Positions 2,083-28,835 of a DNA stretch of 64,000 bases are shown piece by piece. The number at the start of each line of letters is the position of its first letter. Within the stretch, counting starts at the first letter, position 1. The stretch spans positions 248,001-312,000 of the forward strand of contig NZ_JAHBGB010000006.1 in the NCBI RefSeq assembly GCF_018390555.1, in the 5' to 3' direction. The notes under the pieces are model-generated. The model was given only the letters and a program-made list of their open reading frames with translations, was not told where the DNA came from and did not search any database. The DNA is from Ancylobacter oerskovii. Its GTDB lineage: Bacteria; Pseudomonadota; Alphaproteobacteria; Rhizobiales; Xanthobacteraceae. Made by a program: the position numbers and the translations under genes.

Positions 2083-2139
2083 GGCACGGCTCCTCTTCGA
2101 GGTCTCTGGAAGAACGCGTTTTTATCTAGACAAATCCTA

Positions 2140-2160
2140 TGCAACTGAAGCCATGTTGCA
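2140..2160. promoter_or_regulatory. Inverted repeat in the divergent control region (candidate operator)
   Basis: TGCAAC and GTTGCA are perfect inverted 6-base arms separated by 9 bases, inside the AT-richer part of the region between the divergent binding-protein gene and the sarcosine-oxidase-like gene. The position suits a regulator site shared by both promoters. No regulator gene lies next to it, so the bound protein is unknown. Confidence 0.35.
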
Positions 2161-2257
2161 ATATCTTTATTGGCGAGATCGAAACGGCAGAGGTGAAAAA
2201 ATCTCGACGCCTCCGCGATCCGTCCATCACCGCATCCACCACCCGGAAGGAGCCCGC

Positions 2258-6475: not shown

Positions 6476-7000
6476 ATGGTTCAGTTCAGCGTCAACGCAC
6501 AACGCTTCGACCCGTACAAGAACTTCAAGTTCCGCGTGAAATGGGACGGGCGCTATGTCGCGGGCATCAGCAAGGTGGGGGCGCTGAAGCGGTCCACCGA
6601 AGTGGTCGAGCATCGCGAGGGCGGCGACCCGTCCACCGGCCGCAAATCCCCCGGCCGCACCAAATACGACGCCATCTCGCTCGAACGCGGCGTGACTCAC
6701 GACACCGAGTTCGAGAAATGGGCCTCGAAGGTGTGGAACTTCGCCTCCGGGCTCGGCGCGGAGGTGTCGCTCAAGGATTTCCGCAAGGACATCATCGTCG
6801 AGGTCTATAACGAGGCGGGTCAGCTCGCGCTCGCCTACAAGGTGTTCCGCTGCTGGGTGTCGGAATATCAGGCATTGCCGGATCTCGACGCCAATGCCAA
6901 CGCCGTCGCCATCCAGTCGATCAAGCTGGAGAACGAAGGCTGGGAGCGCGACTACGAAATTCCCGAACCCAGCGAGCCGACCTTCACGGAGCCGGAGTGA
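6476..7000 (+). CDS. Contractile injection system inner tube protein (T4 gp19-like)
   Basis: 174 aa. The sequence follows the phage tail tube family: DPYKNFKFRVKWDGRYVAGIS at the start, then the EHREGGDPS and PGRTKYD blocks, LERGVTHD, and the late LENEGWERD. The tube is the rigid, hollow part that sits inside the sheath and carries the payload in its lumen or at its tip. Only one tube gene is present here; Afp-like systems usually have two or more tube-type proteins, although the CIS-tube-domain protein at 14383 may make the tube-baseplate adaptor. Start ATG after a GAGGGGG site, 10 bases after the sheath stop. Confidence 0.94.
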   Translation: MVQFSVNAQRFDPYKNFKFRVKWDGRYVAGISKVGALKRSTEVVEHREGGDPSTGRKSPGRTKYDAISLERGVTHDTEFEKWASKVWNFASGLGAEVSLKDFRKDIIVEVYNEAGQLALAYKVFRCWVSEYQALPDLDANANAVAIQSIKLENEGWERDYEIPEPSEPTFTEPE

Positions 7001-7755
7001 TGGTCGCCCCGATGGCCCGGGGGGCGTGGCGCGGCCTCTCCGGTGCCGACGTGCTGCATATCTGGGAAGTCGGCCACGACCTGCCATCCGGGGAACGGGC
7101 GCTGCTGGTGCTGGCCGCCGCCGCGCCCGACGCCGCCTTCGACGAGTTGGCCCGGCTGCCGCTGGGCGCGCGCGACCGCGCCCTGCTGGCGGTGCGGACG
7201 GCAACGCTCGGCAGCCGGATCGACGCCTTTGCGCAGTGCCCCGCCTGCGCGGGGGCGCTGGAATTTCCGCTCGATACCGGGCCGCTTCTCGCCGGCAGCG
7301 AGGCGGGCGGGCGGCCGCAGACGATGCGGACGGGCGGCTATCTATTGAACCTGCGCCCGCCCGACTGCCGGGACGAAGCGGCCGCGGAGCGCTGCGTGGA
7401 TGTCGCGTCGGCGGAGGCGGTGCTGCTCGCGGCCTGCGTGTGCGCGACCGGGGACGACGGCGGCCCCGTCCCCGTCGAGGCGTTGCCCGACAGCGTACGC
7501 AGGGCGGCCGCGGACGCCATACTGGCGCTCGATCCGCTGACCGATGTCAGCTTCGACGTCACCTGCGCCGATTGCGGCTGCGGCTGGTCGCTCGCCTTCG
7601 ACGTGCCCGCCTTCCTCTGGCAGGAAATCGGCCATCATGCCCGACGGCTGGTGGGCGAGGTGGCCACGCTCGCGCGGGCCTATGGCTGGTCCGAGCATGA
7701 CATCCTCGCGATGAGCCCGGCGCGCCGGCAAAGCTATCTGGCATGGGCGGGCTAG
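7000..7755 (+). CDS. T4 gp26/gp51-like baseplate protein with zinc-ribbon cysteines
   Basis: About 251 aa. The sequence fits the T4 baseplate (gp26/gp51-like) family that recurs in eCIS loci: LSGADVLHIWEVG near the start, a CPAC cysteine pair around residue 80, a second CADCGC cluster around residue 188, and a C-terminal FLWQEIGHHARRL / LARAYGWSEHDI region. The two cysteine pairs probably bind one zinc ion. The role is likely baseplate hub assembly, perhaps as a chaperone. ATG at 7000 overlaps the tube stop (TGATG); an in-frame GTG lies 3 bases upstream but sits too close to the ribosome site. Confidence 0.75.
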   Translation: MVAPMARGAWRGLSGADVLHIWEVGHDLPSGERALLVLAAAAPDAAFDELARLPLGARDRALLAVRTATLGSRIDAFAQCPACAGALEFPLDTGPLLAGSEAGGRPQTMRTGGYLLNLRPPDCRDEAAAERCVDVASAEAVLLAACVCATGDDGGPVPVEALPDSVRRAAADAILALDPLTDVSFDVTCADCGCGWSLAFDVPAFLWQEIGHHARRLVGEVATLARAYGWSEHDILAMSPARRQSYLAWAG

Positions 7756-7758
7756 CCG

Positions 7759-8472
7759 ATGGGCGACCTGTTCAACCGTCTCGCGCGACGCGCACAGGGC
7801 ACCTTGCCGACCGTGCTGCCCCGGCATGCCTCGCGGTTCGAGACGGCCGCCGCCGATGCGCCGGCGCCGCCCATGCCCGCTTCCGTGCCGCTCGCCTCGC
7901 CGCCGGCACCCGTCCCGCAGCCGGCCCCCCGCGTGGAGGCCGTGCCCTCACCCATCGCTTCGTCCGATCCGGGCGGAACGCCTGCGGTTGGCGACGCCGT
8001 CGTCTTCGCCCCCGTTCCTGACGGATCGCCCGCGCCCGGCCCCCTCGCTCCGCCCCAGCCGCCGCGCCAACCCTCGATCGCCTCCCCGCCGGCCGTTGCG
8101 GTCGCGCTAACCATCCCGCGACGGGAACCGGCCCCGGAGCGGGCGCGGCCGGACGACCCACCCGGCGAGATCTTCCCGCAGGAGGCGCGGCGGGAGCCGG
8201 GCACGATCCCGCCATCGCTCCTGCCTCCCGATAGTCGCGACCGGCCCCCTACCCTCGTCACCTCCGCAGCGGCGTCGCTGCCGGCAGCGCCTCGCGAGAC
8301 CGGCGCGCCCGCCATCGCGGCGACGGCGGAGCCGGAACCGGCTCCCATCGTGCGCGTGAGCATCGGCCGCGTGGAGGTGCGGGCCCCGGCCGCCGCGCCG
8401 GCACCACCGCCGGCCAGCCGCCTGATGTCGCTCGACGACTATCTGCGAGGCGACGTTCGGGGGCGGCGATGA
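7759..8472 (+). CDS. Proline/alanine-rich eCIS protein of unknown function
   Basis: 237 aa with no fold I recognise. The first 30 residues (GDLFNRLARRAQG) and the last 20 (RLMSLDDYLRGD) look structured. Everything between is low-complexity Pro/Ala/Arg-rich sequence, probably disordered. Its place between the gp26-like gene and the DUF4255 gene, 3 bases after one and overlapping the other by ATGA, makes it part of the machine or its assembly. Two short conserved ends joined by a flexible linker would suit a tether between two structural parts. It could be a species-specific substitute for a missing component, but that is speculation. Confidence 0.6.
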   Translation: MGDLFNRLARRAQGTLPTVLPRHASRFETAAADAPAPPMPASVPLASPPAPVPQPAPRVEAVPSPIASSDPGGTPAVGDAVVFAPVPDGSPAPGPLAPPQPPRQPSIASPPAVAVALTIPRREPAPERARPDDPPGEIFPQEARREPGTIPPSLLPPDSRDRPPTLVTSAAASLPAAPRETGAPAIAATAEPEPAPIVRVSIGRVEVRAPAAAPAPPPASRLMSLDDYLRGDVRGRR

Positions 8473-9809
8473 GCAACGGCCTCGCCATAGCCGCCGTCAC
8501 CCGCGTGCTGCAGGACATGCTGCATTCCGGGCTGGTCGCCTCCGGCATTGGCGGGGCCGTCGGAGGCACGATCAGCGTGAGCGCCATGCCGCCCGACCGC
8601 ATCCTCGGCGATGGCACCGGCACCGAGGCGACGCAGCTGAACCTGTTCCTGCACCAGATCGCGCCCAATGCGGGCTGGACCGGGCGCGACCTGCCGAGCC
8701 GGGACGCGCGGGCCGAGCGGCTGGTCGATCCGATGCTGGCGCTCGACCTGCACTACCTGCTCACCGCCTATGCCGCGGAGGAGTTCCAGGGCGAGATCTT
8801 GCTCGGCCACGCCATGCAGCTGCTGCACGAGACCCCCGTGCTCAGCCGCGACTACATACGCGACGTGCTGGCCAATCCGCCGGGCGGAGGCATGGCGGCG
8901 GTGGCGCTGCAGGCGCTGGTGCAATCGGATCTGGCCGAGCAGCTGGAGCTGATCAAGATCCGGCCACGCAGCCTCGGCACCGACGACATGTCGAAGCTCT
9001 GGACGGCGTTCCAGTCGCATTACCGCACCAGCACCGCCTATGAGGTATCGGTGGTGCTGATCCAGCGCCGGCACCCCAAGCGGACGCCGCTGCCGGTGCT
9101 GTCGCGCGGGCCGGCCGATCCCGTCACCGGCCGCGACGCCGGCGTGACGGTGCAGGCCTCGCCGGTGCCGAGCCTCCCGACCCTGACCGGCATCGTGCCG
9201 CCCCGGCAGCAAACCGCCGCCCGGCTCGGCGAGACGATCCGGCTCGAGGGACACCATCTGTCGGGCGAGCAGGTTTCCGTGCGCTTCGCCGTCGAGCCGG
9301 ACGGCACGGCGCTGACGCTGCCGGGGATGCTGGCGGGGGACGGCGCGATCACCGTCACGCTGCCGCCGGCGAACCCTCCGCCTCCCCCGCCGCCGCTTCC
9401 CGCGGAGCGCGATCCGGCGAACTGGCCGGTCGGCGTCTACCGGGTCACCGCCCTGCTGCGCGATGCCGGCGGCGAATGGCAGGCCACCAATGTGCTGCCG
9501 CTGCTGCTGGCACCGCTGCTCCTCGCCGTGACGGCGGTCCGGGCGGCTGATGTCGTCACCTTCACCGTGACCTGCGGGCCGCCGATCCGCCGGACCTCGA
9601 CGGTGTTCCTCATCGTCGGCAGCCGGGAATTGCCGGCCGAGCCGATTGCGATGCCTCAGGCGACCACGCTGACCTTCCGCGGCACCGGTTTCACCGCCGG
9701 GCAGACGCTGCCGGTTCGCCTGCGCGTGGACGGCATCGACAGCCTGCTCATCGACCGGACCGCCCGCCCGCCGGCCTTCGACCCGAGCCAGCAGGTGATG
9801 TTGCCATGA
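8469..9809 (+). CDS. DUF4255 (Pvc16-type) protein with Ig-like C-terminal domain
   Basis: 446 aa. Residues 1 to about 190 match the DUF4255/Pvc16 N-terminal family: LAIAAVTRVLQDML, the NLFLHQIAPNAGW segment, then DLHYLLTAYA and an ILLGHAMQLLHE block. In PVC and Afp particles this family caps or terminates the tube and sheath at the end away from the baseplate. A second part begins with LTGIVPPRQ and looks like an IPT/TIG (immunoglobulin-like) domain, followed by a run of seven prolines and another beta-rich segment. The extra domains are longer than in minimal terminators. ATGA overlap on both sides. Confidence 0.85.
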   Translation: MSNGLAIAAVTRVLQDMLHSGLVASGIGGAVGGTISVSAMPPDRILGDGTGTEATQLNLFLHQIAPNAGWTGRDLPSRDARAERLVDPMLALDLHYLLTAYAAEEFQGEILLGHAMQLLHETPVLSRDYIRDVLANPPGGGMAAVALQALVQSDLAEQLELIKIRPRSLGTDDMSKLWTAFQSHYRTSTAYEVSVVLIQRRHPKRTPLPVLSRGPADPVTGRDAGVTVQASPVPSLPTLTGIVPPRQQTAARLGETIRLEGHHLSGEQVSVRFAVEPDGTALTLPGMLAGDGAITVTLPPANPPPPPPPLPAERDPANWPVGVYRVTALLRDAGGEWQATNVLPLLLAPLLLAVTAVRAADVVTFTVTCGPPIRRTSTVFLIVGSRELPAEPIAMPQATTLTFRGTGFTAGQTLPVRLRVDGIDSLLIDRTARPPAFDPSQQVMLP

Positions 9810-11806
9810 GAAATGCGGCCATGAGAGATGCGGCGACGGTGAGGACAGGCATCGGGAAGGCGGCGCCGAGGCGCCCGCAGGATCCCGGCTGGACCGACCG
9901 CAACCAGCACCATCTCTCGGCCGAGATCGCACGGGTGCGGCGGCGGCTCGAACGCCATCTCGACCAGGGCGCCGACGACGCCGGCGCTGAAGAGCCGGCC
10001 GTCGCGGCGGATCCCCAGACCGCGCTCGGACATCTGTGCGCCGCCTTCCAGCTGTCGCCGTTCGAGCGGGACCTGCTGCTGCTCTGCGCGGGCGCGGAAC
10101 TCGACACCGGCATTGCCGGGCTCTGCGCGACGCTGCATGCCGATCCGCGCCGACGAATGCCGAGCTTCGGCCTCGCGCTGGCGGTGCTGCCCGGCGCGCA
10201 TTGGAGCGCGCTCTCCCCGGCGAGCCCGCTGCGCCGGTGGAGCCTGATCGAACCCGGCGCGGGCGAGGCGCTGACCGCCACACCGCTCGGCATGGACGAG
10301 GCGGTGCTGCATTATCTCGCCGGCACGGGCTTCGCCGATCCCCGTCTCGACGGCCTGCTGTCCGCGGTCGACGCAGGCGTCCTCACCGCCTCGCAGGCGG
10401 CCGCGGCGGAGAAGATCGCGCATCTGTGGGCCGGCGCGGGCGATGCGTCATGGCCGGCGGTCCAGCTGTGCGGCGACGACCCGGCCGGCCGGGCGCAAGC
10501 GGCGGCCGAGGCCTGCCGGGCGATCGGCCTCACGCTGCTGCGACTGGACGCCGGCGACCTCCCGGCCGCTCCCCGGGACCGTTTCGCCCTTGCGCGGATG
10601 TGCGAGCGCCGGTTGGTGCTGGAAGGCGCCGCGCTGCTGCTGGAAGGCGCGGACGAGCGCGACGGAAGGGCCGAGCGCGGCCTCGTCGCCTTCGCCGAGG
10701 ACATGTCCGGGCCGCTGATACTGGCGCGCGGCGAGCCGCTCGCCCTGCCGCGCCGGACGAGCCGGCGGCTGGAGGTGAACCGGCCCGACGCCTCCGAGCG
10801 GCGGGCGCTGTGGATGCGGGCGCTGGGCCCGCTGGCCAGCACCCTGAACGGACGGTTCGAGCCGATGATCGACCGCTTCCGGCTGGACCGCGCCGGCATC
10901 GAGGCCGCCTGCGCGGCGGCGGAGGGAGACGATGCCGGTGGCGAGGCGCTCGGCCCGCGGCTCTGGGCGGCGTGCCGGGTGCAGGCCCGTCGTCGCCTCG
11001 ACAACCTCGCCCAGCGCATCGAGGCCCGCGCCTCCTGGGACGATCTGGTGCTGCCGGAGGCGCAGCTGGCGGTGCTGCGCCAGATGTCCACGCATGTGTG
11101 TCACGCCGCCACCGTCTATGAACGCTGGGGCTTCGCCAGCCGGACCGAGCGCGGGCTCGGCATCAGCGCCCTGTTCGCGGGAGCGAGCGGCACCGGCAAG
11201 ACGATGGCGGCCGAGGTGCTGGCCAACGATCTCGGGCTGGACCTCTACCGCATCGATCTCAGCCAGACGGTGAGCAAATATATCGGCGAGACCGAGAAGA
11301 ACCTGCGGATCATCTTCGATGCGGCCGACGACAGCGGCGCCGTGCTGCTGTTCGACGAGGCGGACGCCCTGTTCGGCAAGCGCTCGGAGGTGAAGGACAG
11401 CCATGACCGCTACGCCAATATCGAGGTCAGCTACCTGCTCCAGCGCATGGAGGCGTATCGCGGCCTCGCCGTCCTGACCACCAACCAGAAAAGCGCGGTC
11501 GATCCGGCCTTCCTGCGCCGCATCCGCTTCGTGGTGCAGTTCCCCTTCCCGGATGCCGGCCAGCGCTGCGAGATCTGGCGCCGCGCCTTCCCGCAGGACA
11601 CGCCGACCCTGGACCTCGATCCGGCGCGCCTCGCGCAGCTCGCCCTCGCCGGCGGCAACATCCGCAATGTGGCGATGAACGCCGCCTTCCTTGCCGCGGG
11701 TCGTGGCGAGGCGGTCGGGATGGGGCACATACGCGAGGCGGCGGTGGCGGAATATGCCAAGCTGGAAAAGCCGCTGACCAGTTCCGAGCTCGGAGGGTGG
11801 CGATGA
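9806..11806 (+). CDS. eCIS AAA+ ATPase (Afp15/Pvc15 type)
   Basis: 666 aa. The N-terminal 400 residues form the helical, degenerate region seen in eCIS ATPases. The C-terminal AAA+ domain has Walker A GASGTGKT at about 459-466, Walker B LLFDEAD at about 513-519, sensor-like TTNQ, and the arginine-finger region FLRRIRF. Members of this family are needed for particle assembly or payload loading in PVC/Afp systems. They are not the ClpV disassembly ATPase of type VI secretion, which has two AAA+ modules. Overlaps both neighbours by 4 bases. Confidence 0.93.
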   Translation: MRNAAMRDAATVRTGIGKAAPRRPQDPGWTDRNQHHLSAEIARVRRRLERHLDQGADDAGAEEPAVAADPQTALGHLCAAFQLSPFERDLLLLCAGAELDTGIAGLCATLHADPRRRMPSFGLALAVLPGAHWSALSPASPLRRWSLIEPGAGEALTATPLGMDEAVLHYLAGTGFADPRLDGLLSAVDAGVLTASQAAAAEKIAHLWAGAGDASWPAVQLCGDDPAGRAQAAAEACRAIGLTLLRLDAGDLPAAPRDRFALARMCERRLVLEGAALLLEGADERDGRAERGLVAFAEDMSGPLILARGEPLALPRRTSRRLEVNRPDASERRALWMRALGPLASTLNGRFEPMIDRFRLDRAGIEAACAAAEGDDAGGEALGPRLWAACRVQARRRLDNLAQRIEARASWDDLVLPEAQLAVLRQMSTHVCHAATVYERWGFASRTERGLGISALFAGASGTGKTMAAEVLANDLGLDLYRIDLSQTVSKYIGETEKNLRIIFDAADDSGAVLLFDEADALFGKRSEVKDSHDRYANIEVSYLLQRMEAYRGLAVLTTNQKSAVDPAFLRRIRFVVQFPFPDAGQRCEIWRRAFPQDTPTLDLDPARLAQLALAGGNIRNVAMNAAFLAAGRGEAVGMGHIREAAVAEYAKLEKPLTSSELGGWR

Positions 11807-12060
11807 GGCGGGCCGGCATCGAGCTTCACATCGACCGGCTGGTGGTCGAGGGCATCGCGCCCACCGACGCCGCCGCGCTGCGCCGCGCGGTCGAGCGCGA
11901 GCTGGCGCGCCGGCTCGCCGCGCCGACGGCAACGGCAACCGACACTCCCCGTGGCGCCGCGCATGTGGATGCGGGGGTGTTGCCGGTCCCCGCATCGGCC
12001 GGCCCGCAGCGTTTCGGCACGGCGATCGCCGACCGGGTGTTGGGAGGGCTGAAACGATGA
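11803..12060 (+). CDS. Small conserved-type eCIS protein, unknown function
   Basis: 85 aa. It opens RRAGIELHIDRLVVEG; short proteins with a similar HIDRLVLxG start commonly sit between the ATPase and the DUF4157 gene in eCIS loci (from memory, not searched). No catalytic motif, signal or membrane segment is visible. I start it at the ATG at 11803, after GGAGG at 11792-11796. It overlaps the ATPase stop by 4 bases and the next start by 4 bases, so it should be made in step with both. A role as adaptor or chaperone for the ATPase or payload is possible. Confidence 0.65.
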   Translation: MRRAGIELHIDRLVVEGIAPTDAAALRRAVERELARRLAAPTATATDTPRGAAHVDAGVLPVPASAGPQRFGTAIADRVLGGLKR

Positions 12061-14270
12061 AAGCATCGGCTTCCGCCGCTCGGGTTCCCGCTGCCGCTCC
12101 CGCCATTGCCCAGCCCAGCAGAACGACCACGGCCCGGACGGAGCGTGGCCGGGAACGCCCGGCCCCGGCGGCGGCGGAAGCCTCCGGTTTCAGCCATGTC
12201 CGCCTCGCGGCCAACGGCCAGCCGCTGCAGCGCAGGCTCGCCGTGGATGTTTCCGAGCCGCTGGAACGGGAAGCCGACGCCATGGCGGACCGGGTCATGC
12301 GCATGGCCGATCCCGACAGGGCCATCGGCAGGGACCAGCCGCCTTCGCTTGCGAGGAAGTGCGCCGCCTGCGCCGCCGAGCACGAGGAGGACGAACGCGA
12401 GGATGACGAGCAAAAGCTTCGGCGCAGGCACGCATCGGCGCGCGACAATCTCGGTGGAACGACGGCTCCGGCCATCGTCCATGACGTGCTCGGCTCGCCC
12501 GGCAGGCCGCTCGCCTCTTCCGAGCGCCGCTTCTTCGAGCCGCGCTTCGGCTATGATTTCGGCAGCGTGCGCGTCCATGCCGACAGCCGCGCCGCCGCCT
12601 CCGCCGATGCGGTGAATGCGCTCGCCTATACGGTGGAGCACAACATCGTCTTCGCACAAGGCCGCTACCAGCCGGGCGATACGGCTGCCCGCCACCTGAT
12701 GGCGCACGAGCTGACGCATGTCGTGCAGCAGGGCCGGGCGGCGCGGGCCGAGGGCGGTGTCGCGCCGGCCAAGCCGGCCGTGGCGCGCAAGGCCCGCACC
12801 GACCGGCAATATGACCTGCTTGCCGCCCATGTCCATGACGGCATCTATCGGCTCGGCACCGACGAGGAGCTGGTCTATCAGGCGCTGCAGGAACTCGACC
12901 GCGATCCCGTGGCGATCGCCGAGTTCATGGACGTCTACCGCAACTACATTGCGCGGGTCGAGAACAAGGCGGTCAACGACCTGCCGGCGGACCTGCTCAT
13001 CCAGGACATCGAAGGCGATTTCAGCGGCGGCGAGCTGGAGTTCGCCCTGCAATTGCTCAACCGGGGCACGAAGGACGCCGCACAGCAGATCGAGGCGGGG
13101 GCGCCGGGATCGGAAGCCGCCCTGACCTCAGCCGCGAAACGCCTGCTGGCCGCTGTGGATACCATCTGGGGCACCGACGAGGAGGCGATCTATGCCGTCC
13201 TGCTGCCGTTCGGGCGCGACCAGACCAAGCTCCAGCCATTGCGCGACGCCTACAAGAAGATCGCCAGCGGCGAGGATCTGGAAACGCGCCTTCTCGACGA
13301 GATGAGCGGATCGGAGCTCGACTACGCGATCTACCTGCTTTTCGATCCCAAGCGGGCCTACGACTTCTATCTGCGCCAGGCGTCCGACACCGAATTCAGC
13401 AGCTTCGTGACCGGCGGGGCCAGGACCGTCGGGTCGGATTGCGTGATGCCGAAAGGCGACGCCTTCAACAAGACCTATTGGGAAAAGGGCAACCCGAACG
13501 GCAACGAGATGTGCGCGCTGATGGCGAAGACCGGCGGGCGCCCCTCGGAAGCGGTCAAGGCGCTGTTCGACTACATGACGGCGGACGGCTTCACCGGGGC
13601 GCTCCGGGGAGCGGCGGAGAACACGGTCGCCAGCCCGGGCTGGCGGGTGGACTGCGCCGAATGGGTGCAGATCCACCATCTCTACGCGATGCTGAAGCTT
13701 CTCGGCCCCTATCGCTTCGACCTGAAGTTCGGAAACTCGCCCTTCTGGCTGAAGGAGCACCGGACGACCGGGCTGTCGTCCCGGATGTTCTTCCTCCGCT
13801 CCGGGTTCGATACCGACACGCGGCGCCCGCGCGAGGAGATGGCGCCGGTGAAGCTGGACAAGGGTTCGCCGCAGAAGAAGAAGGGTGGCGACTACGACGT
13901 CAATGCGAACGAGAAGCCCCGCGATGTCGAGACGGTGCTGCGGGAGGCGCCGGTCGGCAGCCGGGTCATGTGGTCGAACGTCTATCTCGCCCAGAATCCC
14001 GGCGGCGTCGGTGGAACCCCCAATTCGTTCACCAACGAGAACACCATCAAGCTGGGCGACGACACCTATGGCGCCCATGGCTTCTTCGCCCGCCAGGTCT
14101 TCAAGCGCGCCGAGCTGGAGGCCAAGCTGGCGAATGTCGACAAGCCGTCCGGCATGTCGACGGAGCAGGCGATCAAGACCTACATCGTGATCCGCGAGAT
14201 CGAATACTACACCACCATAGCCGAGGAACCCTGGGAAAGGGTCGCGGAAGACCCGGACAGGACAGCCTAG
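12057..14270 (+). CDS. DUF4157 (eCIS core) payload with annexin-like repeats and Tgl-type transglutaminase domain
   Basis: 737 aa in four parts. Residues 1-95: basic, Ala-rich leader. 101-125: CAAC followed by an acidic run, the usual prelude to DUF4157. About 145-230: the DUF4157/eCIS-core domain with the PRFGYDFGSVRVH block and a HELTH motif at 217-221. About 250-440: two segments with LGTDE (266-270) and WGTDEE (371-376), resembling annexin repeats. About 460-737: a region that matches Bacillus spore transglutaminase Tgl around its active residues: Cys533 in VDCAEW, Glu661 in NENTIKLGDD, and His674 in YGAHG, with the same 13-residue Glu-to-His spacing as Tgl Glu187/His200. If active it would cross-link or modify glutamines in a target cell. 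DUF4157 is known to mark eCIS-associated toxins. The annexin and Tgl calls rest on motif reading from memory. Confidence 0.75.
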   Translation: MKASASAARVPAAAPAIAQPSRTTTARTERGRERPAPAAAEASGFSHVRLAANGQPLQRRLAVDVSEPLEREADAMADRVMRMADPDRAIGRDQPPSLARKCAACAAEHEEDEREDDEQKLRRRHASARDNLGGTTAPAIVHDVLGSPGRPLASSERRFFEPRFGYDFGSVRVHADSRAAASADAVNALAYTVEHNIVFAQGRYQPGDTAARHLMAHELTHVVQQGRAARAEGGVAPAKPAVARKARTDRQYDLLAAHVHDGIYRLGTDEELVYQALQELDRDPVAIAEFMDVYRNYIARVENKAVNDLPADLLIQDIEGDFSGGELEFALQLLNRGTKDAAQQIEAGAPGSEAALTSAAKRLLAAVDTIWGTDEEAIYAVLLPFGRDQTKLQPLRDAYKKIASGEDLETRLLDEMSGSELDYAIYLLFDPKRAYDFYLRQASDTEFSSFVTGGARTVGSDCVMPKGDAFNKTYWEKGNPNGNEMCALMAKTGGRPSEAVKALFDYMTADGFTGALRGAAENTVASPGWRVDCAEWVQIHHLYAMLKLLGPYRFDLKFGNSPFWLKEHRTTGLSSRMFFLRSGFDTDTRRPREEMAPVKLDKGSPQKKKGGDYDVNANEKPRDVETVLREAPVGSRVMWSNVYLAQNPGGVGGTPNSFTNENTIKLGDDTYGAHGFFARQVFKRAELEAKLANVDKPSGMSTEQAIKTYIVIREIEYYTTIAEEPWERVAEDPDRTA

Positions 14271-14382
14271 CGCCTACCAGCGGCGTCGGCGACGTCGCTG
14301 CGTGCCTATACGGTTTCATCGGCAGGGCCGGCTTCACGGGCCGTCATCTGCCGGCGGGCAAGCATGCAGGACGAGCGGAGCG

Positions 14383-15039
14383 ATGACCTCCTTTCCGAAT
14401 TCGCCGAAGCTGATCAAGGGCGGCATCGTGCAGGTCGCGACGGAGGGCGCGGCGGTGCAGCGGGTCATCACGCTGCAGTACAATCCCGAAAGCGTCAGCC
14501 GCAGCCTGCAGGTGCAGGGTACCGGCGAGAACGGCCAGCGCTCGGAAGCGCTGCGGCTGAAAGGGCCCGCCGTCGAGACCATCAAGATCGACGCCGAGAT
14601 CGACGCCACCGACCAGCTCGAATTCCCGCAGTCCAATCCGGTGGCGACCGCCTTCGGGGTGTTCCCACAGCTCGCGGCGCTGGAGACCATGGTCTACCCG
14701 ACCAGCGGCCAGCTCCAGGCCAACCATGCGCGGGCGGGCAGCGGCACGCTGGAGATCGCGCCGATGGAGACCCCGCTCACCCTGTTCATCTGGAGCAAGA
14801 ACCGCATCGTGCCGGTGCGGATCACCGAGTTCAGCGTCACCGAGGAGGCCTTCGACGCCGCCCTGAACCCGATCCGCGCCAAGGTCAGCCTCGGCATGAG
14901 GGTGCTGAGCGTCGACGATCTCGGCTTCGCCCATCGCGGCGGCAGCCTGTTCATGAGCTACCTGCAGGCCAAGGAGCAGATGGCGGCGAAGGCCGCCGGC
15001 GGCAGCCTCGGCCTGCTCGGCATTGGAGGCTTGCCATGA
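14383..15039 (+). CDS. CIS tube-domain protein (Afp7-like tube/baseplate adaptor)
   Basis: 218 aa. The sequence follows the CIS tube N-terminal family: LIKGGIVQV, LQYNPESVSRSLQ, LRLKGPAVETI, and the strand-rich PLTLFIWSKNRIVPVRI segment. In Afp and PVC such proteins link the tube to the hub, usually together with a LysM domain. Here the LysM part is a separate gene starting 4 bases before this one ends, so the Afp7-type protein appears split in two. Start ATG at 14383 after GCGGAG. A 112-base gap precedes it, the largest in the operon, so an internal promoter or processing site could lie there. Confidence 0.88.
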   Translation: MTSFPNSPKLIKGGIVQVATEGAAVQRVITLQYNPESVSRSLQVQGTGENGQRSEALRLKGPAVETIKIDAEIDATDQLEFPQSNPVATAFGVFPQLAALETMVYPTSGQLQANHARAGSGTLEIAPMETPLTLFIWSKNRIVPVRITEFSVTEEAFDAALNPIRAKVSLGMRVLSVDDLGFAHRGGSLFMSYLQAKEQMAAKAAGGSLGLLGIGGLP

Positions 15040-15398
15040 GCGACCCGGTGCAGGCGCTGTTTCAGGTCGGCGTGCTGAAGAGCACCGACTTCCCGCCGAA
15101 CAGCCGCTATCACGATGTGCCCACCCGCCGGCTGACCGCGCCGGACGGCAGCGTCACCGTCTATCTGGCCCGCCGGCTCGTGCCGCCGCCGGAGCGCTTC
15201 GCGCTGCTCCAGGAGCACAGCGTCACGCAGGGGGACCGGCTCGACCGCCTCGCCGCCCGCTATCTCGGCGATCCCGAGCGGTTCTGGGCGTTGTGCGACG
15301 CCAACGGTGCCATCCGGCCGGACGAACTGGTGGAGACGCTCGGCCGCCGGCTGCGCATCACGCTGCCCGAGGGCATCCCCGGACCGTTCGGGGAGTGA
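15036..15398 (+). CDS. LysM-domain baseplate protein (gp53-like)
   Basis: 120 aa. The C-terminal half (QEHSVTQGDRLDRLAARYLGD through LRITLP) is a LysM fold with the usual ERFWALCDAN segment of phage gp53/gpX-type proteins. In contractile tails this small protein helps clamp hub and wedge, and the LysM fold is thought to be structural rather than for cell-wall binding. ATGA overlap with the upstream CIS-tube gene, and 4 bases before the hub gene. Confidence 0.87.
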   Translation: MSDPVQALFQVGVLKSTDFPPNSRYHDVPTRRLTAPDGSVTVYLARRLVPPPERFALLQEHSVTQGDRLDRLAARYLGDPERFWALCDANGAIRPDELVETLGRRLRITLPEGIPGPFGE

Positions 15399-15402
15399 CG
15401 CG

Positions 15403-16536
15403 ATGCGGATCCAGGGCATCCATCTCACGCTGATGATCGGTCCCGGGGTCCCGGTGCCGGTGCCGCGCGAGGTGCTCGACGCCCTCACCTCGGTGCAGGT
15501 GACGAGCGCCGCGGGAGACACCCAGAGCGGCTTCGACCTCACCTTCGCGCTCGACCGCCGCTCGCCGCTCGCCACGCTGTTCCTGGTGTCCGGCGGCGCC
15601 TCCATTCCGCTGGTGCGGGTGATCGTGGTGGCGACGATCAACGGCACGCCCAACGTGCTGATCGACGGGGTGATGACGCATCACCAGGTCGAGCCGGGTT
15701 CCGGGGGCGGGCCGTCGACGCTGAAGGTGCAGGGCAAGGATCTCAGCACCGTCATGGGCTATATCGATTTCTCCGGCCTGCCCTACCCGGCGATGCCGCC
15801 GGTCGCCCGCGTGGCGCTGATCATCGCCAAATATGCCTGGCTGGGCCTGATGCCGCTGACCATACCCAGCGTGGTCGAGGACATTCCGCTGCCGACCGAC
15901 CGCATCCCGGTGCAGAAGGGCAAGGACCTCGACTACGTCAGGCAGCTGGCACGGCAATGCGGGCATGTCTTCTATGTCGAGCCGGGGCCGGCACCGGGCA
16001 CCAGCGTCGCCTATTGGGGGCCGGAAATCCGCGTCGGCCCGCCGCAGCCGGCGTTGAGCATCGACATGGACGCCCACACCAATGTCGAGCAACTGAGCTT
16101 CCGCTTCGACAAGGAGCGCAAGGAGATGCCGGTGGTGTTCATCCAGGAACCCCTCAGCAAGGCGCCGATCCCGATCCCCATTCCCGATGTCACGCCGCTG
16201 AACCCGCCGCTCGGGGCGGTGCCGCCGCTGCCGCCCAAGATCACGCTGATGAACGACACCACCCAGCTCTCGCCGCTGGCGGCGCTGATGCGCGGCATCG
16301 CCTATGCCTCGCAGCACAGCGACTGCGTGTTCGCCAGCGGCAGCCTCGACGTGCTGCGCTACGGGCAGGTGCTGAAGTCGCGGCGGCTGGTCGGGCTGCG
16401 CGGTGCCGGCCTCGCCTTTGACGGCCTCTACTACGTCTCCCGCGTCACCCACGAGATCGCGCGCGGGCAATACAAGCAATCCTTCGAGCTCGCCCGCAAC
16501 GGCGTCGTCTCCACATTGCCGCAGGTGGCCGCATGA
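15403..16536 (+). CDS. Baseplate hub protein, gpD/T4 gp27-like
   Basis: 377 aa. The pattern is that of phage late control D / VgrG N-terminal proteins: a beta-barrel start (LTSVQVTSAAGDTQSGFDLTF), VVATINGTPNVLIDGVM with HHQV, KGKDLDYVRQLARQCGHVFYV, and the C-terminal GLYYVSRVTHEI. The trimer forms the hub on which tube and spike sit. It is separate from the spike gene that follows, as in T4 gp27 plus gp5, rather than fused as in VgrG. Pro-rich loop at about residues 260-285. ATG at 15403 after GGGGAG. Confidence 0.9.
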   Translation: MRIQGIHLTLMIGPGVPVPVPREVLDALTSVQVTSAAGDTQSGFDLTFALDRRSPLATLFLVSGGASIPLVRVIVVATINGTPNVLIDGVMTHHQVEPGSGGGPSTLKVQGKDLSTVMGYIDFSGLPYPAMPPVARVALIIAKYAWLGLMPLTIPSVVEDIPLPTDRIPVQKGKDLDYVRQLARQCGHVFYVEPGPAPGTSVAYWGPEIRVGPPQPALSIDMDAHTNVEQLSFRFDKERKEMPVVFIQEPLSKAPIPIPIPDVTPLNPPLGAVPPLPPKITLMNDTTQLSPLAALMRGIAYASQHSDCVFASGSLDVLRYGQVLKSRRLVGLRGAGLAFDGLYYVSRVTHEIARGQYKQSFELARNGVVSTLPQVAA

Positions 16537-17048
16537 CCGACGAAACCCGCTTCCTCGGCAAGTATCGCGGCACCTGCATCAACAATGTCGACCCGATGAT
16601 GATGGGCCGCATCCAGCTCATCGTGCCCGACGTCTCCAATGTCATGCTGTCGAGCTGGGCGATGCCCTGCCTGCCGGTGGCCGGCATGCAGATGGGCATG
16701 TTCGCCGTGCCGGTGATCGGCTCCGGCGTCTGGGTGGAGTTCGAGAAGGGCGACCCGGACCATCCGATCTGGGTCGGCGGCTATTGGGGCAGCGGCGCCG
16801 AGGTGCCGGTGCTGGCGCGCATGGTGCCGCCCGCCGTGCCCGGCATCACCCTGCAGACCACGCTGCAGAACGGGCTCACCATCAACGACGTGCCCGGCCC
16901 GACCGGCGGCATCATGATCAAGAGCGCCACCGGCGCGACGCTGATCGTCAACGACACCGGCATCTACATCCAGAACGGCAAGGGGGCGAGCCTCGTCATG
17001 GTGGGGCCGTCCGTCACCATCAACAACGGCGCGCTCACGGTGATCTGA
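16533..17048 (+). CDS. Baseplate spike protein, gp5/gpV-like
   Basis: 171 aa. Residues 1-90 form the OB-fold domain of baseplate assembly protein V (LGKYRGTC, MMGRIQLIVPDV, PVIGSGVWVEFEKGDPDHPIWVGGYW). The rest alternates short hydrophobic and polar segments (ITLQTTLQ, GIMIKSATGATLIV, GIYIQNG), as expected for a short trimeric beta-helix needle. It has no lysozyme domain. The PAAR-like tip encoded next should cap it. ATGA overlap with the hub gene. Confidence 0.92.
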   Translation: MTDETRFLGKYRGTCINNVDPMMMGRIQLIVPDVSNVMLSSWAMPCLPVAGMQMGMFAVPVIGSGVWVEFEKGDPDHPIWVGGYWGSGAEVPVLARMVPPAVPGITLQTTLQNGLTINDVPGPTGGIMIKSATGATLIVNDTGIYIQNGKGASLVMVGPSVTINNGALTVI

Positions 17049-17060
17049 GAGGAGACGGGA

Positions 17061-17384
17061 ATGCCTGGCTTTCTCCTGCATGTCGGCGCCACCGTGCTGT
17101 GCTCGCATGGCGGACAGGCGCAGCCGGCGACGCCGGTGCCGCGGGTGCTGGTCAGCGGCCAGCCGGTGGTGACCATCGCCAGCCCCTATCTCGTCGCCGG
17201 TTGCGCCATGCCGCCGCCACCGGCCGGCAACGGGCCGTGCGTCACCGGCCAGTTCGTCACCGCGGCGCTGCGGGTCACCGCCCTCGGCCAGCCGGTGCTG
17301 CTGCAGGACAGCCAATCGGTCTGCGCCCCCACCGGCACCCCGCTGATGCCGGTGGCGATGCAGACGCGGGTGATGGGGAGCTAG
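17061..17384 (+). CDS. PAAR-like spike tip protein
   Basis: 107 aa, immediately after the spike gene. It opens GFLLHVGATVLCSHGG and has four Cys and two His in a repeating Gly/Pro/Val-rich pattern (VAGCAMP, NGPC, QSVCAP), which suggests a small metal-bound cone like PAAR proteins. Such tips sharpen the needle and can carry or anchor payload. It has no C-terminal extension, so any payload must attach non-covalently. GAGAGGAG-type ribosome site upstream. Confidence 0.8.
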   Translation: MPGFLLHVGATVLCSHGGQAQPATPVPRVLVSGQPVVTIASPYLVAGCAMPPPPAGNGPCVTGQFVTAALRVTALGQPVLLQDSQSVCAPTGTPLMPVAMQTRVMGS

Positions 17385-17386: not shown

Positions 17387-17752
17387 ATGCACCTCGCCTA
17401 TCCCTTCCATTTCGACGGGCGGGCGCGCACGGCGCAGGCCGGGGACGACGAGCATATCCGCCAGCAGATCGAGCAGGTGCTGTTCACCGCGCCGGGCGAG
17501 CGGGTGAACCGGCCGGATTTCGGCAGCGGCGTGCTGCAGCTCGTCTTCGCGCCGAACAGCCAGGAGCTCGCCGCCACCGTGCAGTTCCTGGTGCAGGGCG
17601 CGCTGCAGCAATGGCTCGGCGACCTCATCGTGGTCGATGCGGTGGAGATCGAGGCCGAAGACGCCCGGCTCACCGTGCGCATCGCCTATCTCAATCGCCG
17701 GACCCAGCAGCGCGCCGCCGCCGACTTCGTGCGGGAGGTGCCGGCGCCATGA
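17387..17752 (+). CDS. Baseplate wedge protein, gp25-like
   Basis: 121 aa. It carries the GPW/gp25 family landmarks: EHIRQQIEQVLFTAPGERV with NRPDFGSG, LQQWLGDLIVVDAV and a C-terminal LTVRIAYLNRR. gp25 starts sheath polymerisation and ties it to the baseplate. The EPR-like glutamate/arginine core motif appears as GERVNRPDFG. ATG at 17387 with GGGGAG 6 bases upstream; the end overlaps the first baseplate-J gene by ATGA. Confidence 0.94.
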   Translation: MHLAYPFHFDGRARTAQAGDDEHIRQQIEQVLFTAPGERVNRPDFGSGVLQLVFAPNSQELAATVQFLVQGALQQWLGDLIVVDAVEIEAEDARLTVRIAYLNRRTQQRAAADFVREVPAP

Positions 17753-20349
17753 TCTACACCTGCTGCAACGAGGACCGCCGTGATCGCGTGTTCCAGGACA
17801 GCACGCTGAACGGCATCGATTTCCTCGAGGTGCTCGACCGCGCCGCGCCGGCCGCGACGCCGCGCCAGCGCACCCTTTTGGTGCGGCTGCTGCGGCCGCC
17901 GCCGGCGGGGCTCGGCGCCGAGAATGTGGTGATCGAGGGCGGCGAGCGCGTCACCGCCATCCGCGTGCTCTGGGCGCATCCGGCCAATGCGATCCCGCCG
18001 GCCGACCTCGGCGCGGAAGACGCGGCCTTCTTCGCCGGCCTGCCGGAACCCGCGGCCACGCTCGTGGTGCGCACCGATGCCGCCGGCGACTACTCCGCCT
18101 ATCGGCTGCGCTTCGTCCGCTCCCGCACCGACCCCTTGCCGCCAGCGACTTTCGACCCGCCGCTGGCCAGCATCGACTTCTCGTTCAAGGTGGAATGCCC
18201 GAGCGATTTCGACTGCCGCGACGATCACGATTGCTCGCCCGATCCCGGCGAGGCACCGGAGATCGATTATCTCGCCAAGGACTATGCGAGCTTCCGCCGG
18301 CTGATGCTCGACCGGCTGTCGCGGCTCATGCCGGACTGGCGCGACCGCAGTGCCGCCGATCTCGGCGTCGCCCTGGTGGAGACGCTCGCCTATGTCGCCG
18401 ACCATCTGAGCTACCGGCAGGATGCCGTCGCCACCGAGGCCTATCTCGGCACGGCGCGGCGGCGCGTCTCGGTGCGGCGTCATGCGCGGCTGGTGGACTA
18501 TCGCCTGCATGAGGGCAGCAATGCCCGCGCCTTCGTGCAATTGCTGGTCTCTGCCGATGCCGATGACGACCAGCCGGGATTGCCGATCCTCGTCCCGCAG
18601 GCCTCCATGCTGCTGACGCAGATCACCGGCAGCGGCGGGCGCATCCCGCTTTCCAACCCTGTCCCGGGGCGGCTGGCACCGCTGGAACTGGCGCTGCGCC
18701 AGAGCCCCACCGTGTTCGAGACGCTGCATCCGCTGCGGCTGTTCACCTCCCACCACCTCATGCCCTTCTACACCTGGAGCGACAGCGCCTGCCGCCTGCC
18801 GAAGGGAGCGGTGCGCGCGACATTGCGCGGGCATTTCCCGAACCTCGCCAGCGCGGAAGGCGAGCCGGGCAAGGTGCTCGTCTTCGAGGAGGTGCTGGGG
18901 CCGCTGACCGGGCGCGCGGAGGATGCCGACCCCGCCATGCGGCATGCGGTGCGCCTCACCGCCGTGCGCGCCTTCGCGCCGAAAGCGAACCCGGCCGACC
19001 CGCCCTCGCCGCTGACCGATGAGGTGACCGGTGAGGCCATCACCGAGATCCGCTGGCACGAGGAGGACGCCCTGCCCTTCCCGCTGTGCATCTCCTCGCG
19101 CACCGATGCCGATCACGGCGAGGTGGCGGTGGCGGATGTCAGCATGGCGCGCGGCAATATCGTGCTCGCCGACCACGGCTTCACCATCCGGGACGAGCCG
19201 CTCGGCGCCGTGCCGCAGCCGCACCTCTTCACGGTGAGCAGGGCCGCCGGCTGCTGCACGCCGCCGCTGCGGCAGGCGGTGCCGCCACGCTTCCGCCCGA
19301 TGCTGGGCGAGCGTCCGCTCACCCACGGTACTAGCGAAGTCATGCCGGCCGCGGCAGCGTCCGGGGCGATGTCCGCCGTCGAGTTCCAGCCGGCGATCAC
19401 CCTCACCGACATCACCGCCCCGGAGATGCCGCGCTGGGAGGCGCGACCGGACCTGCTGGGGAGCGGGCCCGCCGACCGTCACTTCGTGGCCGAGGTCGAG
19501 GCCGATGGCGAGGTGCGGCTGCGCTTCGGCGACGACCGCCACGGCATGCGGCCGCAACCCGGCAGCGCCTTCACCGCCACCTACCGCATCGGCCAGGGAC
19601 GGGCCGGCAATGTCGGTGCCGGCGCGCTGGTGCATGTGGTGAGCGACGATGGCCGCGTCGCCGGCGCCTCCAACCCGCTGCCGGCACGCGGCGGCACCGA
19701 CCCCGAAAGCCTGGAAGAGGCGCGGCAGAAGGCGCCCTTCGCCTTCCGCACCCTGCAGCGCGCCGTCACCCCGGCGGACTACGCCACGCTCGCCGAGCGG
19801 CAGGAGGGCGTGCAGCGGGCGGCGGCGACCTTCCGCTGGACCGGCAGCTGGCACACCGCCTTCGTCACCGTGGACCGTATCGGCGGCGCCGCGGTGACGG
19901 AAGCCTTCGAGACCCGCCTGCGCGACCGGCTGGAGGCCTTCCGCATGGCCGGCTACGACGTGGAGATCGATTCCCCGCGCTTCGTGCCGCTGGAGCTGGA
20001 CCTTCAGGTGGAGGTGGCCCCGGATTATTTCCGCGCCAATATCCGCGCCGCGCTCCTGGAGGCGCTCGGCAGCCGGACGCTGCGCGACGGCCGGCGGGGC
20101 CTGTTCCATCCCGACAACCTCACCTTCGCCCAGCCCATCTATCTCAGCGCCATCCACGCGGCGGCGCAGGCGGTGCCCGGCGTCGTCTCGGTGGAGGTGA
20201 CGCGGTTCCATCGCCAGGGCCAGCCGAGCCGCCGGGCGCTGGACGACAGCCGGCTGGAGCTCGGGCGGCTGGAGATCGCCCGGCTCGACAACGACCGTAA
20301 TTTCCCCGAGCGCGGCGTGCTGCGCCTCAGCATCGGAGGCGGCAAATGA
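17749..20349 (+). CDS. Baseplate J-like wedge protein 1 (Afp11/gp6-like)
   Basis: 866 aa. The mid-N region has EIDYLAKDYASFRRLMLDRL with DLGVALVETLAYVADHLSYRQD, typical of eCIS putative baseplate assembly proteins. The C-terminal third has the baseplate-J pattern (RTLQRAVTPADYATLAERQEGV, then an arm ending in ISLSAIHAAAQAVPGV-like sequence). It should build the wedge that surrounds the hub. The first 150 residues, with Cys-rich YTCCNEDRR and a CPSDFDCRDDHDC stretch (about 145-160), may bind metal. Start ATG 17749 overlaps the gp25 stop. Confidence 0.88.
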   Translation: MIYTCCNEDRRDRVFQDSTLNGIDFLEVLDRAAPAATPRQRTLLVRLLRPPPAGLGAENVVIEGGERVTAIRVLWAHPANAIPPADLGAEDAAFFAGLPEPAATLVVRTDAAGDYSAYRLRFVRSRTDPLPPATFDPPLASIDFSFKVECPSDFDCRDDHDCSPDPGEAPEIDYLAKDYASFRRLMLDRLSRLMPDWRDRSAADLGVALVETLAYVADHLSYRQDAVATEAYLGTARRRVSVRRHARLVDYRLHEGSNARAFVQLLVSADADDDQPGLPILVPQASMLLTQITGSGGRIPLSNPVPGRLAPLELALRQSPTVFETLHPLRLFTSHHLMPFYTWSDSACRLPKGAVRATLRGHFPNLASAEGEPGKVLVFEEVLGPLTGRAEDADPAMRHAVRLTAVRAFAPKANPADPPSPLTDEVTGEAITEIRWHEEDALPFPLCISSRTDADHGEVAVADVSMARGNIVLADHGFTIRDEPLGAVPQPHLFTVSRAAGCCTPPLRQAVPPRFRPMLGERPLTHGTSEVMPAAAASGAMSAVEFQPAITLTDITAPEMPRWEARPDLLGSGPADRHFVAEVEADGEVRLRFGDDRHGMRPQPGSAFTATYRIGQGRAGNVGAGALVHVVSDDGRVAGASNPLPARGGTDPESLEEARQKAPFAFRTLQRAVTPADYATLAERQEGVQRAAATFRWTGSWHTAFVTVDRIGGAAVTEAFETRLRDRLEAFRMAGYDVEIDSPRFVPLELDLQVEVAPDYFRANIRAALLEALGSRTLRDGRRGLFHPDNLTFAQPIYLSAIHAAAQAVPGVVSVEVTRFHRQGQPSRRALDDSRLELGRLEIARLDNDRNFPERGVLRLSIGGGK

Positions 20350-27927: not shown

Positions 27928-28835
27928 GGGCGGTGTGGTCGCTCTGGACCAAGCCGCTGAAGGCGCAGCGGCGGGCCGGCTGGCTCACCCCGCGGCATCA
28001 TCTGCTGGCCTGGGTGCTGTCGGTCGAGCTCGCCAGCCGGCATTACGGCGACACCTGCCTGGTCGCCGACGACGCGGCCGCCGCGGTGCTGGTGGATGCG
28101 CTGGGGCTGCGCTTCGGCACGGTCAGCCTCGGACTCAATGCGCTCGACGCGCACGATCCCGACTGGTGGGCGATCGGCAAGCTCTACGCGCAGATCGAGC
28201 AGGACCGCCCCTATGTGCACATCGACAATGACGTGTTCCTGTGGGAACCGCTGCCGGAGGCGCTGGTGCGGCAGGCGGTGTTCGCGCAGAACCCGGAGAT
28301 CTCGCCCTACGGCGCGTCCTATTACCGGCCGGAAAGCATCGAATACGACATTCGCCGGCATGGCGGCTGGATGCCGGAGGAATTCGAGCACTACATGCCG
28401 TTCGGCGGCGAATTGCGGGCCGAGAATTGCGGCATCGTCGGCGGCAACCGGGTCGACTTCATGCGCTACTACGCGCAGCGGGCGATCGACTTCATCGAGC
28501 ACCCGGCGAACCAGAGCGTCTGGGCGCGGCGGCCGCGGCGCGACCAGGACTTCGTGACCTTCGAGCAGCTGATGCTGTCGGCCTGCCTCGCCTATCACCG
28601 GGGACAGGCCGGCTCGCCCTTCGCCGATGTCGTCATGGCGCATCTGTTCGACAGCCATGACGACGCCCTGGCTCGCGCCAATGCGCATGGCTACACCCAC
28701 CTCGCCGCCGATTCCAAGCGCGACCCGGAGCTCTCGCTCCAGCTGGAACAGGCGGTGGCGCAGCATTTTCCCGAGCAGTACCGGCGTCTCGACGACTTCC
28801 TCGCGGACCGGCCGGAGGGGTGGCCGGCAGCCTGA
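27924..28835 (+). CDS. DUF6734-like, glycosyltransferase-type protein closing the eCIS operon
   Basis: 303 aa. I read it as the DUF6734 family: AVWSLWTKPLK at the start, YGDTCLVADD, DWWAIGKLYAQIEQD, then YVHIDNDVFLW, whose DND (about residues 97-99) is a DxD-type nucleotide-sugar/metal motif of GT-A glycosyltransferases. Later blocks are ENCGIVGGN and QDFVTFEQLMLSA. No signal peptide or membrane segment. The ATGA overlap with the DUF6519 gene means it is translated with the machine. It could be a second payload, an enzyme that glycosylates a particle component such as the fibre-like proteins, or a passenger. No reaction can be assigned from the sequence. Confidence 0.65.
   Translation: MRAVWSLWTKPLKAQRRAGWLTPRHHLLAWVLSVELASRHYGDTCLVADDAAAAVLVDALGLRFGTVSLGLNALDAHDPDWWAIGKLYAQIEQDRPYVHIDNDVFLWEPLPEALVRQAVFAQNPEISPYGASYYRPESIEYDIRRHGGWMPEEFEHYMPFGGELRAENCGIVGGNRVDFMRYYAQRAIDFIEHPANQSVWARRPRRDQDFVTFEQLMLSACLAYHRGQAGSPFADVVMAHLFDSHDDALARANAHGYTHLAADSKRDPELSLQLEQAVAQHFPEQYRRLDDFLADRPEGWPAA

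Follow-up and report, generated by a model that had tools for sequence, protein, structure and literature searches.

Injected enzymes that carry a DUF4157 domain have already been described from extracellular contractile injection systems (eCIS). Here, we compare with them a gene of Ancylobacter oerskovii, located at positions 12057-14270 (+) of a 64,000-nt stretch of contig NZ_JAHBGB010000006.1 (the whole of which we call the window, and whose coordinates are used throughout) and encoding a protein of 737 aa, hereafter the window effector. Among the described systems, EAT14 of Chitinophaga rupis joins DUF4157 to LysM and Transglut_prok (PF09017) domains, is toxic to E. coli and yeast, and loses this toxicity when Cys298, Asp397 or His410 is changed (PMC11297309). 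In Haliangium ochraceum, proteins combining DUF4157, annexin and either Ntox_3 or Peptidase_M90 were described in 2014 (PMC3894181), and annexin (PF00191) is listed among eCIS-associated domains (PMC8213781). A mycobacterial transglutaminase has also been reported, with a section on loading into the Photorhabdus virulence cassette (PVC) (PMC12113844). The remaining point of reference is Tgl of Bacillus subtilis, which has been made in active form; its catalytic dyad consists of Cys116, placed in a tunnel, and Glu187, which Glu115 can replace, and catalysis does not require its His200, which stands at a tunnel entrance (PMC6490927).

The window effector combines, as predicted from its translation and from Pfam, a DUF4157 block, two annexin-like repeats and a Tgl-like domain, and we consider it likely to be an injected gamma-glutamyl transferase of the surrounding eCIS, that is, a loaded effector that would work like Tgl. 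Its open reading frame (ORF) is confirmed as a real gene, supported by the composition of the frame (strong G+C at third codon positions, GC3 0.86) and by recognisable homologues. Like EAT14, it is eCIS-associated and has an N-terminal DUF4157 and a C-terminal transglutaminase-like domain, and both proteins place 13 residues between acid and histidine (Asp397-His410 in EAT14, Glu661-His674 here). It differs from EAT14 in family (TGL, PF20085, rather than PF09017), in its acid (Glu rather than Asp) and in carrying annexin-like repeats; EAT14 is set apart here by its published description, the main text of which does not contain the word "annexin" (PMC11297309). Transglut_prok, the EAT14 family, gave no match in Pfam scans of the window effector listed to E 1 and to E 10, although most matches weaker than about E 0.1 are removed by the filters of HMMER. 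With the Haliangium proteins it shares the presence of DUF4157, annexin and a toxin domain in one chain, whereas the toxin domains there are Ntox_3 or Peptidase_M90, and "transglutaminase" does not occur in the main text of the report (PMC3894181). Tgl and the window effector have counterparts of Cys, Glu and His in common as well as N..YW and PSxA blocks; B. subtilis Tgl, by contrast, is a free-standing spore enzyme with Glu115 and a shorter Cys-Glu distance, and belongs to a separate clade.

An initial sequence-only reading of this locus had stated that it knew of no described eCIS payload of this combination. In view of EAT14 and the Haliangium proteins this was too strong as a claim about payloads. 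Neither a Tgl-family eCIS payload nor the combination of DUF4157, annexin and Tgl was found in the literature searched, which was mostly without subscription journals. The pairing of a Tgl-like domain with annexin-like repeats looks new.

The C-terminal domain and the Tgl family

The Tgl-like (gamma-glutamyltransferase-like) region, assigned by Pfam, homologue profiles and alignment, comprises residues 441-737 (13377..14267, +). It contains Cys533 (in VDCAEW; codon 13653..13655), Glu661 (in NENTIKLGDD; 14037..14039) and His674 (in YGAHG; 14076..14078), all on the plus strand and at the residue positions given in the sequence-only reading, as a script confirmed. Homology to the Tgl family (PF20085, in the broad sense) is detectable over the Cys and Glu/His segments through homologues. 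These were collected with a degenerate DNA pattern, derived from the Glu...His segment, that was run over 84,980 species represented by one genome each (genome_contigs). The scan returned 41 loci, two of which encode eCIS_core proteins with matching C-termini, in Rhizobacter sp. MAG_54 (L078, NZ_JADMJX010000117.1) and Hyalangium versicolor (L081, NZ_JAHXBF010000027.1). When the window C-terminus was compared by phmmer with the frames of the 41 loci, these two were the only matches, at 40.8 bits for Rhizobacter and 80.3 bits for Hyalangium. Both had been chosen on the Glu/His segment, and the similarity reaches the unselected Cys region. The Hyalangium protein also passes the Pfam TGL cut-off (34.8 bits vs 23.7, E 1.4e-8, profile positions 75-210). 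Both resemble the window effector in architecture: the Rhizobacter protein has DUF4157, two annexin repeats and a Tgl-like domain and lies directly behind an AAA gene, and differs in having some 200 additional residues ahead of its annexin repeats, where M35 metallopeptidases are matched weakly; the Hyalangium protein has DUF4157 and the Tgl-like domain, and differs in showing no annexin match at E 0.1.

The three eCIS C-termini were aligned (A2; the other two are 33 and 39% identical to that of the window), and when all PDB sequences were searched with this alignment to E 10, the only two matches were Tgl entries, 4p8i at E 1.4e-4 and 7c9j at E 0.0047, each of which sums a weak Cys and a weak Glu/His stretch. 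PDB 4p8i and 4pa5 we take to be B. subtilis Tgl. In the A2-4p8i alignment, C533, E661 and H674 fall on C116, E187 and H200 of Tgl, and D532 on E115. A2 further matches a free-standing Tgl of a deltaproteobacterium in two segments (E 5.7e-4 and 6.2e-4). Comparison of A2 with an alignment of 15 Tgl-type proteins (A4) by hhalign gave a probability of 98 and E 2.7e-13 in a single comparison, a score owed in part to selection, since each of the two alignments includes rows picked by way of the Glu/His segment. Taken by itself, the window C-terminus scored 26.1 bits with a profile built from 15 Tgl-type proteins, the best of 1000 shuffles (499 listed) reaching 6.0. This match consists of collinear N..YW, DC and EN..LG....HG blocks in weak stretches of 7.3, 1.7 and 13.3 bits; as all 15 rows had been picked by the Glu/His DNA pattern, the N..YW and Cys blocks are the only ones that this choice did not bias.

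Across the 20 rows of a wider alignment (A3), W475, A499, C533, F554, G634, E661, N662, G667 and H674 are invariant; the pattern by which 17 of these rows had been chosen required E661, N662, G667 and H674, but not W475, A499, C533, F554 or G634. The sequence-only reading had proposed Tgl as the family and a Cys-Glu-His triad as the catalytic site. A homologue profile search able to refute the former placed the C-terminus in the Tgl family, with the window and Rhizobacter proteins missing the Pfam cut-off. As for the triad, all three residues do align with Tgl, but the Tgl dyad is formed by Cys116 and Glu187 without an essential role for His200 (PMC6490927).

A tree of 25 sequences placed the proteins of the window, Rhizobacter and Hyalangium together with a fourth, L091, in a clade of their own (support 100/99), and the window effector does not fall inside the spore-type Tgl clade. 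Because of a long-branch warning (1.51 for the window row, 2.63 for L092) and midpoint rooting, we claim the separateness of this clade and not an order of events. The fourth member came from searches with A2 that used no DNA-pattern filter. Among 147 genomes of the Hyalangium class, three gave a match (Hyalangium, P0002 and P0003), and among 195 genomes of its phylum seven did; in the frames read in the six other than Hyalangium, Pfam and phmmer found no DUF4157. The P0002 protein (identical with L091) scores 33.4 bits, above the TGL cut-off, and has all three of the Cys, Glu and His residues. It is a stand-alone clade member without DUF4157 (L091:1501-2511 (-), genome G1030), and an ORF nearby looks, by reading, like a von Willebrand A protein. 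An Asp before the Cys, considered as a mark of the injected clade, was rejected as such because L071, L092 and L102 have it as well.

Searches elsewhere returned little. With the C-terminus alone, no relative was confirmed among 30 pattern stretches in genome_contigs or 11 in viral_contigs, and none was found in plasmids or phages, in 60 related genomes (the 61st being its own) or in 384 genomes of the class (the 385th its own). With A2, none of 29 pattern stretches in viral_contigs was confirmed; the own genome was the only match among 199 of its order, and the Rhizobacter genome the only one among 200 of the Rhizobacter family. Of 198 genomes from the own family that were searched with PF20085, 16 gave matches at E up to 1, none over the cut-off. 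Nine of the 41 pattern loci were scanned with Pfam; for the remaining rows of Bacillota type, motif context served to identify them as Tgl. L048, L060 and L082 had no TGL match in these scans, and their DNA match was read as chance, as was that of L067, L069, L075 and L076, judged by their frames only; L068 gave no match in its Pfam scan. L045, the only Glu/His-pattern locus in viral_contigs, matched on the minus strand while its listed frames of at least 80 aa lie on the plus strand, and was likewise set aside as chance, as was L004, the sole extra match of residues 251-737 in 398 phylum genomes (E 0.007, with internal stops). Several Tgl-type proteins carry long N-terminal extensions (L098, L101 and L102 in G1350, L099 in G1353); G1350 has two Tgl-type copies side by side and a third elsewhere on the contig, and in some of this group the Glu-His spacing exceeds 13.

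The DUF4157 and annexin-like parts

DUF4157/eCIS_core (PF13699) covers residues 151-228 (12507..12740, +) at E 6.5e-28 and 97.2 bits against a cut-off of 22, and includes HELTH, an HExxH motif, at 217-221, in agreement with the sequence-only reading; H217, E218, L219 and H221 are invariant across the seven rows of alignment A1. In the own family, DUF4157 occurs at 12 places in 7 of 198 genomes. Two of six scanned DUF4157 proteins, out of the 11 others, have toxin-like C-termini, namely Peptidase_M10 (under the cut-off) and Ntox44 (over it). Scanning viral_contigs with A1 gave 12 DUF4157 loci, none matching the C-terminus or the annexin part (phmmer, E 1). On plasmid pBOCT2 of Brasilonema octagenarum, a cyanobacterial hypothetical protein (L111:3701-5116 (+)) matches query residues 133-351, a match that runs past DUF4157 into the annexin region.

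The two annexin-like GTDE segments that had been noticed at the outset lie at positions 267 and 372. The first belongs to a repeat of about residues 250-330 (12804..13046, +; limits approximate), which was defined by alignment with a Rhizobacter annexin repeat and has no Pfam match of its own. The second repeat, residues 360-419 (13134..13313, +) with WGTDE at 371-375, matches Pfam Annexin at E 1.3e-5 and 25.6 bits, just over the cut-off of 25, when residues 231-450 are scanned alone, and at E 6.4e-4 and 20.2 bits, under it, in the whole-protein scan. By phmmer it also matches annexin A4 in PDB, with E 1.5e-5 for two stretches combined, which taken one at a time reach 0.22 and 0.68, and its WGTDE resembles the third repeat of annexin A5. 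The corresponding Rhizobacter region, itself at 29.6 bits in Pfam Annexin, matches the two-repeat region of the window effector at 104.8 bits in its best stretch. With two GTDE repeats, the canonical four-repeat annexin core is not present, and we therefore speak of annexin-like repeats. At the positions of the GxGT type II calcium motif, the window effector has RLGT and IWGT and the Rhizobacter protein GLGT and GPGT, so that of the two annexin-bearing effectors only the latter has full motifs. The two repeats would make membrane placement of the effector plausible.

The surrounding eCIS operon and its relatives

The mid-operon setting described by the sequence-only reading was borne out by Pfam: an eCIS operon extends from the sheath gene (4141) to a DUF6734 gene (28835), with sheath, tube, baseplate J, spike V, Pvc16_N, AAA, CIS_tube, DUF4157 and fibre genes, all on the plus strand, and the effector gene stands behind the AAA gene, as in Rhizobacter. 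Upstream lie the contractile sheath protein (4141..6465, 774 aa; Phage_sheath_1 E 6.8e-13, Phage_sheath_1C E 2.5e-10), the inner tube protein (6476..7000, 174 aa; Phage_T4_gp19 E 2.4e-45), a T4_baseplate-like protein (6997..7755, 252 aa; E 2.8e-4, under the cut-off), a 237-aa protein (7759..8472), the Pvc16-type terminator (8469..9809, 446 aa; Pvc16_N E 1.5e-44) and the AAA ATPase, Pvc15-like by position and family (9806..11806, 666 aa; AAA E 6.4e-25). A small ORF of 87 aa (11797..12060), without a Pfam or NCBIfam match at E 0.01, overlaps the AAA gene, and its stop overlaps the effector start (ATGA), an arrangement that makes co-translation of effector and AAA gene probable.

Downstream follow a CIS_tube-type protein (14302..15039, 245 aa; E 5.4e-6, 26.7 bits vs a cut-off of 27), a 409-aa protein without a family, assigned to the spike region by position (15307..16536; no Pfam match, 88% identity in the same-genus genome G027), a spike or baseplate V OB-domain protein (16533..17048, 171 aa; Phage_base_V E 6e-20), a small DUF4280-like protein (17061..17384, 107 aa; E 0.0035, under the cut-off), two Baseplate_J proteins (17611..20349, 912 aa, E 6.4e-8; 20346..23072, 908 aa, E 9e-7) and a phage-tail domain protein (23069..25225, 718 aa; NCBIfam TIGR02242 E 0.006, far under the cut-off, and no Pfam match). 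The operon is completed by a DUF6519 tail-fibre protein (25270..27927, 885 aa; E 3.4e-46), DUF6519 being the eBAP5 class of tail fibres (PMC12923769), and by the DUF6734 protein (27924..28835, 303 aa; E 1.7e-52). The DUF6734 gene overlaps the fibre gene by 4 bases and possibly encodes a second cargo or a modifying enzyme. In the second half of the window, the best-ranked plasmid matches are from Shinella and Sinorhizobium, with 71-77% identity over 6-12% of the query.

The G027 operon provides the closest comparison. Identity is 90% for the sheath, 97% for the tube, 91% for CIS_tube, 96% for base V, 74% for AAA, 80% for the fibre, 77% for a 503-residue frame holding DUF6734 and 70% for the 87-aa ORF; the lowest match of the particle region is that of the 237-aa protein, at 57% and confined to its first 54 residues. 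The effector matches at residues 123-261 only (46% identity) and has a different C-terminus. With similar particle and fibre genes and a different payload, the window effector looks like a swappable effector, G027 being the one case in which payload variability was compared. The G027 counterpart (L097:10442-12724 (-)), a DUF4157 protein, contains hydrophobic stretches and ends in an unassigned C-terminus where the window effector has its annexin and Tgl parts; it has no Pfam domain besides eCIS_core at E 0.05.

In Rhizobacter, where the AAA ATPase is 47% identical, gene order is conserved and runs from tube through baseplate, Pvc16, AAA and effector to two further DUF4157 genes and CIS_tube. 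The two DUF4157 genes behind the effector (L096:130-1326 and 1330-2967 (-)) show no other Pfam domain at E 0.05. The Rhizobacter effector itself (L078:2793-5552 (-), L078/L096) holds a second HExxH motif, HEAAH, between DUF4157 and annexin at about residues 330-440; this region has a weak Aspzincin_M35 match (E 0.091) and is perhaps a built-in protease. More broadly, Pvc16_N was found in all three genomes with other members of the injected-type clade (Hyalangium, Rhizobacter and G1030) and in none of six whose Tgl-type proteins lie outside it; as DUF4157 had already been known from two of the three, only G1030 counts as an independent case. Since the G1030 gene lies about 0.5 and 1.8 Mb from its two Pvc16_N matches, and the Hyalangium gene is on a different contig from the Pvc16_N match there, the link to eCIS in these two holds at the level of the genome only.

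Proposed action, alternatives and implications

If the window effector is the injected transferase that we consider likely, its DUF4157 part would mark it for the particle, as family knowledge suggests, and the neighbouring AAA ATPase would be the likely loading factor, by analogy with Pvc15. Upon contraction of the particle the effector would enter the target cell, where Cys533, helped by an acid (Glu661, perhaps Asp532), would attack a glutamine side chain to form a thioester, and the glutamyl group would then pass to an amine, in protein cross-linking or amine attachment, or to water, in deamidation. From the homology we expect the chemistry to lie with Cys533 and Glu661, Asp532 being a possible back-up. 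Transglutamination would be our first choice of activity; deamidation by the same chemistry would look the same in these data. Ahead of Glu661, Phe658 and Asn660 replace W184 and G186 of Tgl, a difference that suggests other substrates. For the annexin-like repeats, the most likely role would be to keep the enzyme on an acidic membrane surface, calcium possibly taking part.

Several observations weigh against this reading. TGL is the top Pfam match of residues 441-737, yet with E 0.013 and 15.2 bits it stays under the cut-off of 23.7; the whole protein gives E 0.27 (10.9 bits) and a shorter cut E 0.14 (11.8 bits), and the match spans the Glu/His segment only. By phmmer, the C-terminus alone found nothing in PDB at E up to 10. 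With so weak a Pfam match and no PDB match, the Tgl claim would be, from the protein's own sequence, a lead and not a result. In a PF20085 search of its own genome, moreover, the window effector is not among the matches, and the Rhizobacter protein is likewise under the TGL cut-off (20.7 bits, over the Cys region). The counterpart of Tgl Glu115 is Asp532, an acid but a shorter one. From Cys to Glu the window effector has 128 residues and the four injected-type members 98-130, compared with 70-85 in eight of the nine other Tgl-type rows measured, out of 21 in the tree (L092 has 103). Those four members, the window effector included, are the full yield of all searches. Finally, the effector gene stands mid-operon behind the AAA gene, while the usual place of DUF4157-type eCIS toxins is the operon 3′ end (PMC8213781).

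A first alternative is that the C-terminus is a cysteine protease or another Cys hydrolase on the same fold and not a glutamyl transferase, which we regard as unlikely. The fold in question, NlpC/P60, is also found in cysteine peptidases. It forms the catalytic core of Tgl (PMC6490927), and the authors of the EAT14 study could not rule out a protease for their transglutaminase-like toxin (PMC11297309), a caution that bears on our reading too; the diverged residues before Glu661, with Phe658 for W184, would fit a hydrolase as well. On the other hand, TGL is the best C-terminal profile in the window, Rhizobacter, Hyalangium and P0002 proteins, with no NlpC/P60 or cysteine-peptidase family listed, the A2 search finds only Tgl in PDB, and both the ENxxxLG....HG segment and the N..YW block have been conserved.

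A second, and in our view very improbable, explanation is that the domain acts at home, welding or maturing proteins of its own particle as Tgl welds the spore coat. Canonical Tgl does work on pre-assembled complexes of its own cell (PMC6490927), and the gene lies among structural genes. Yet the closely similar particle of G027 has another C-terminus at this place, one clade member, that of G1030, stands alone, with about 0.5 Mb or more between it and any Pvc16_N match, and two of the six scanned DUF4157 proteins of the family carry toxin-like C-termini. Least probable of all is that the C-terminus serves for binding, as a degenerate Tgl relative without catalysis. This might be read from the large divergence (17-23% identity to the 16 Tgl-type A3 rows outside the injected clade), the missed Pfam cut-off and the long Cys-Glu stretch. 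Against it, none of the four injected-type members, one of them found without the DNA-pattern filter, has lost Cys533, Glu661 or His674.

Returning to the injected glutamyl transferase, we would tentatively extend it to a distinct branch of injected Tgl across Alphaproteobacteria, Rhizobacter and Myxococcota, in which a lineage of spore-coat "spot-welders" might have been turned into a contractile-injection weapon; in two members, half an annexin might sit at the inner face of the target membrane, where the enzyme could weld membrane-near proteins or the cytoskeleton, perhaps under a calcium switch.

The window effector joins three threads that stand separately in the literature searched, namely DUF4157 payloads of eCIS, bacterial annexins, whose role has been unknown, and the spore-coat Tgl family. 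Bacterial annexin repeats would gain a testable role, the placing of an injected enzyme, and four natural sequences now come with a clear catalytic hypothesis. As compact transglutaminases are used for protein labelling, the new branch may also be of practical interest. The comparison with G027, in turn, supports a view of eCIS particles as general carriers, whose cargo is swapped by replacing the part that follows DUF4157.

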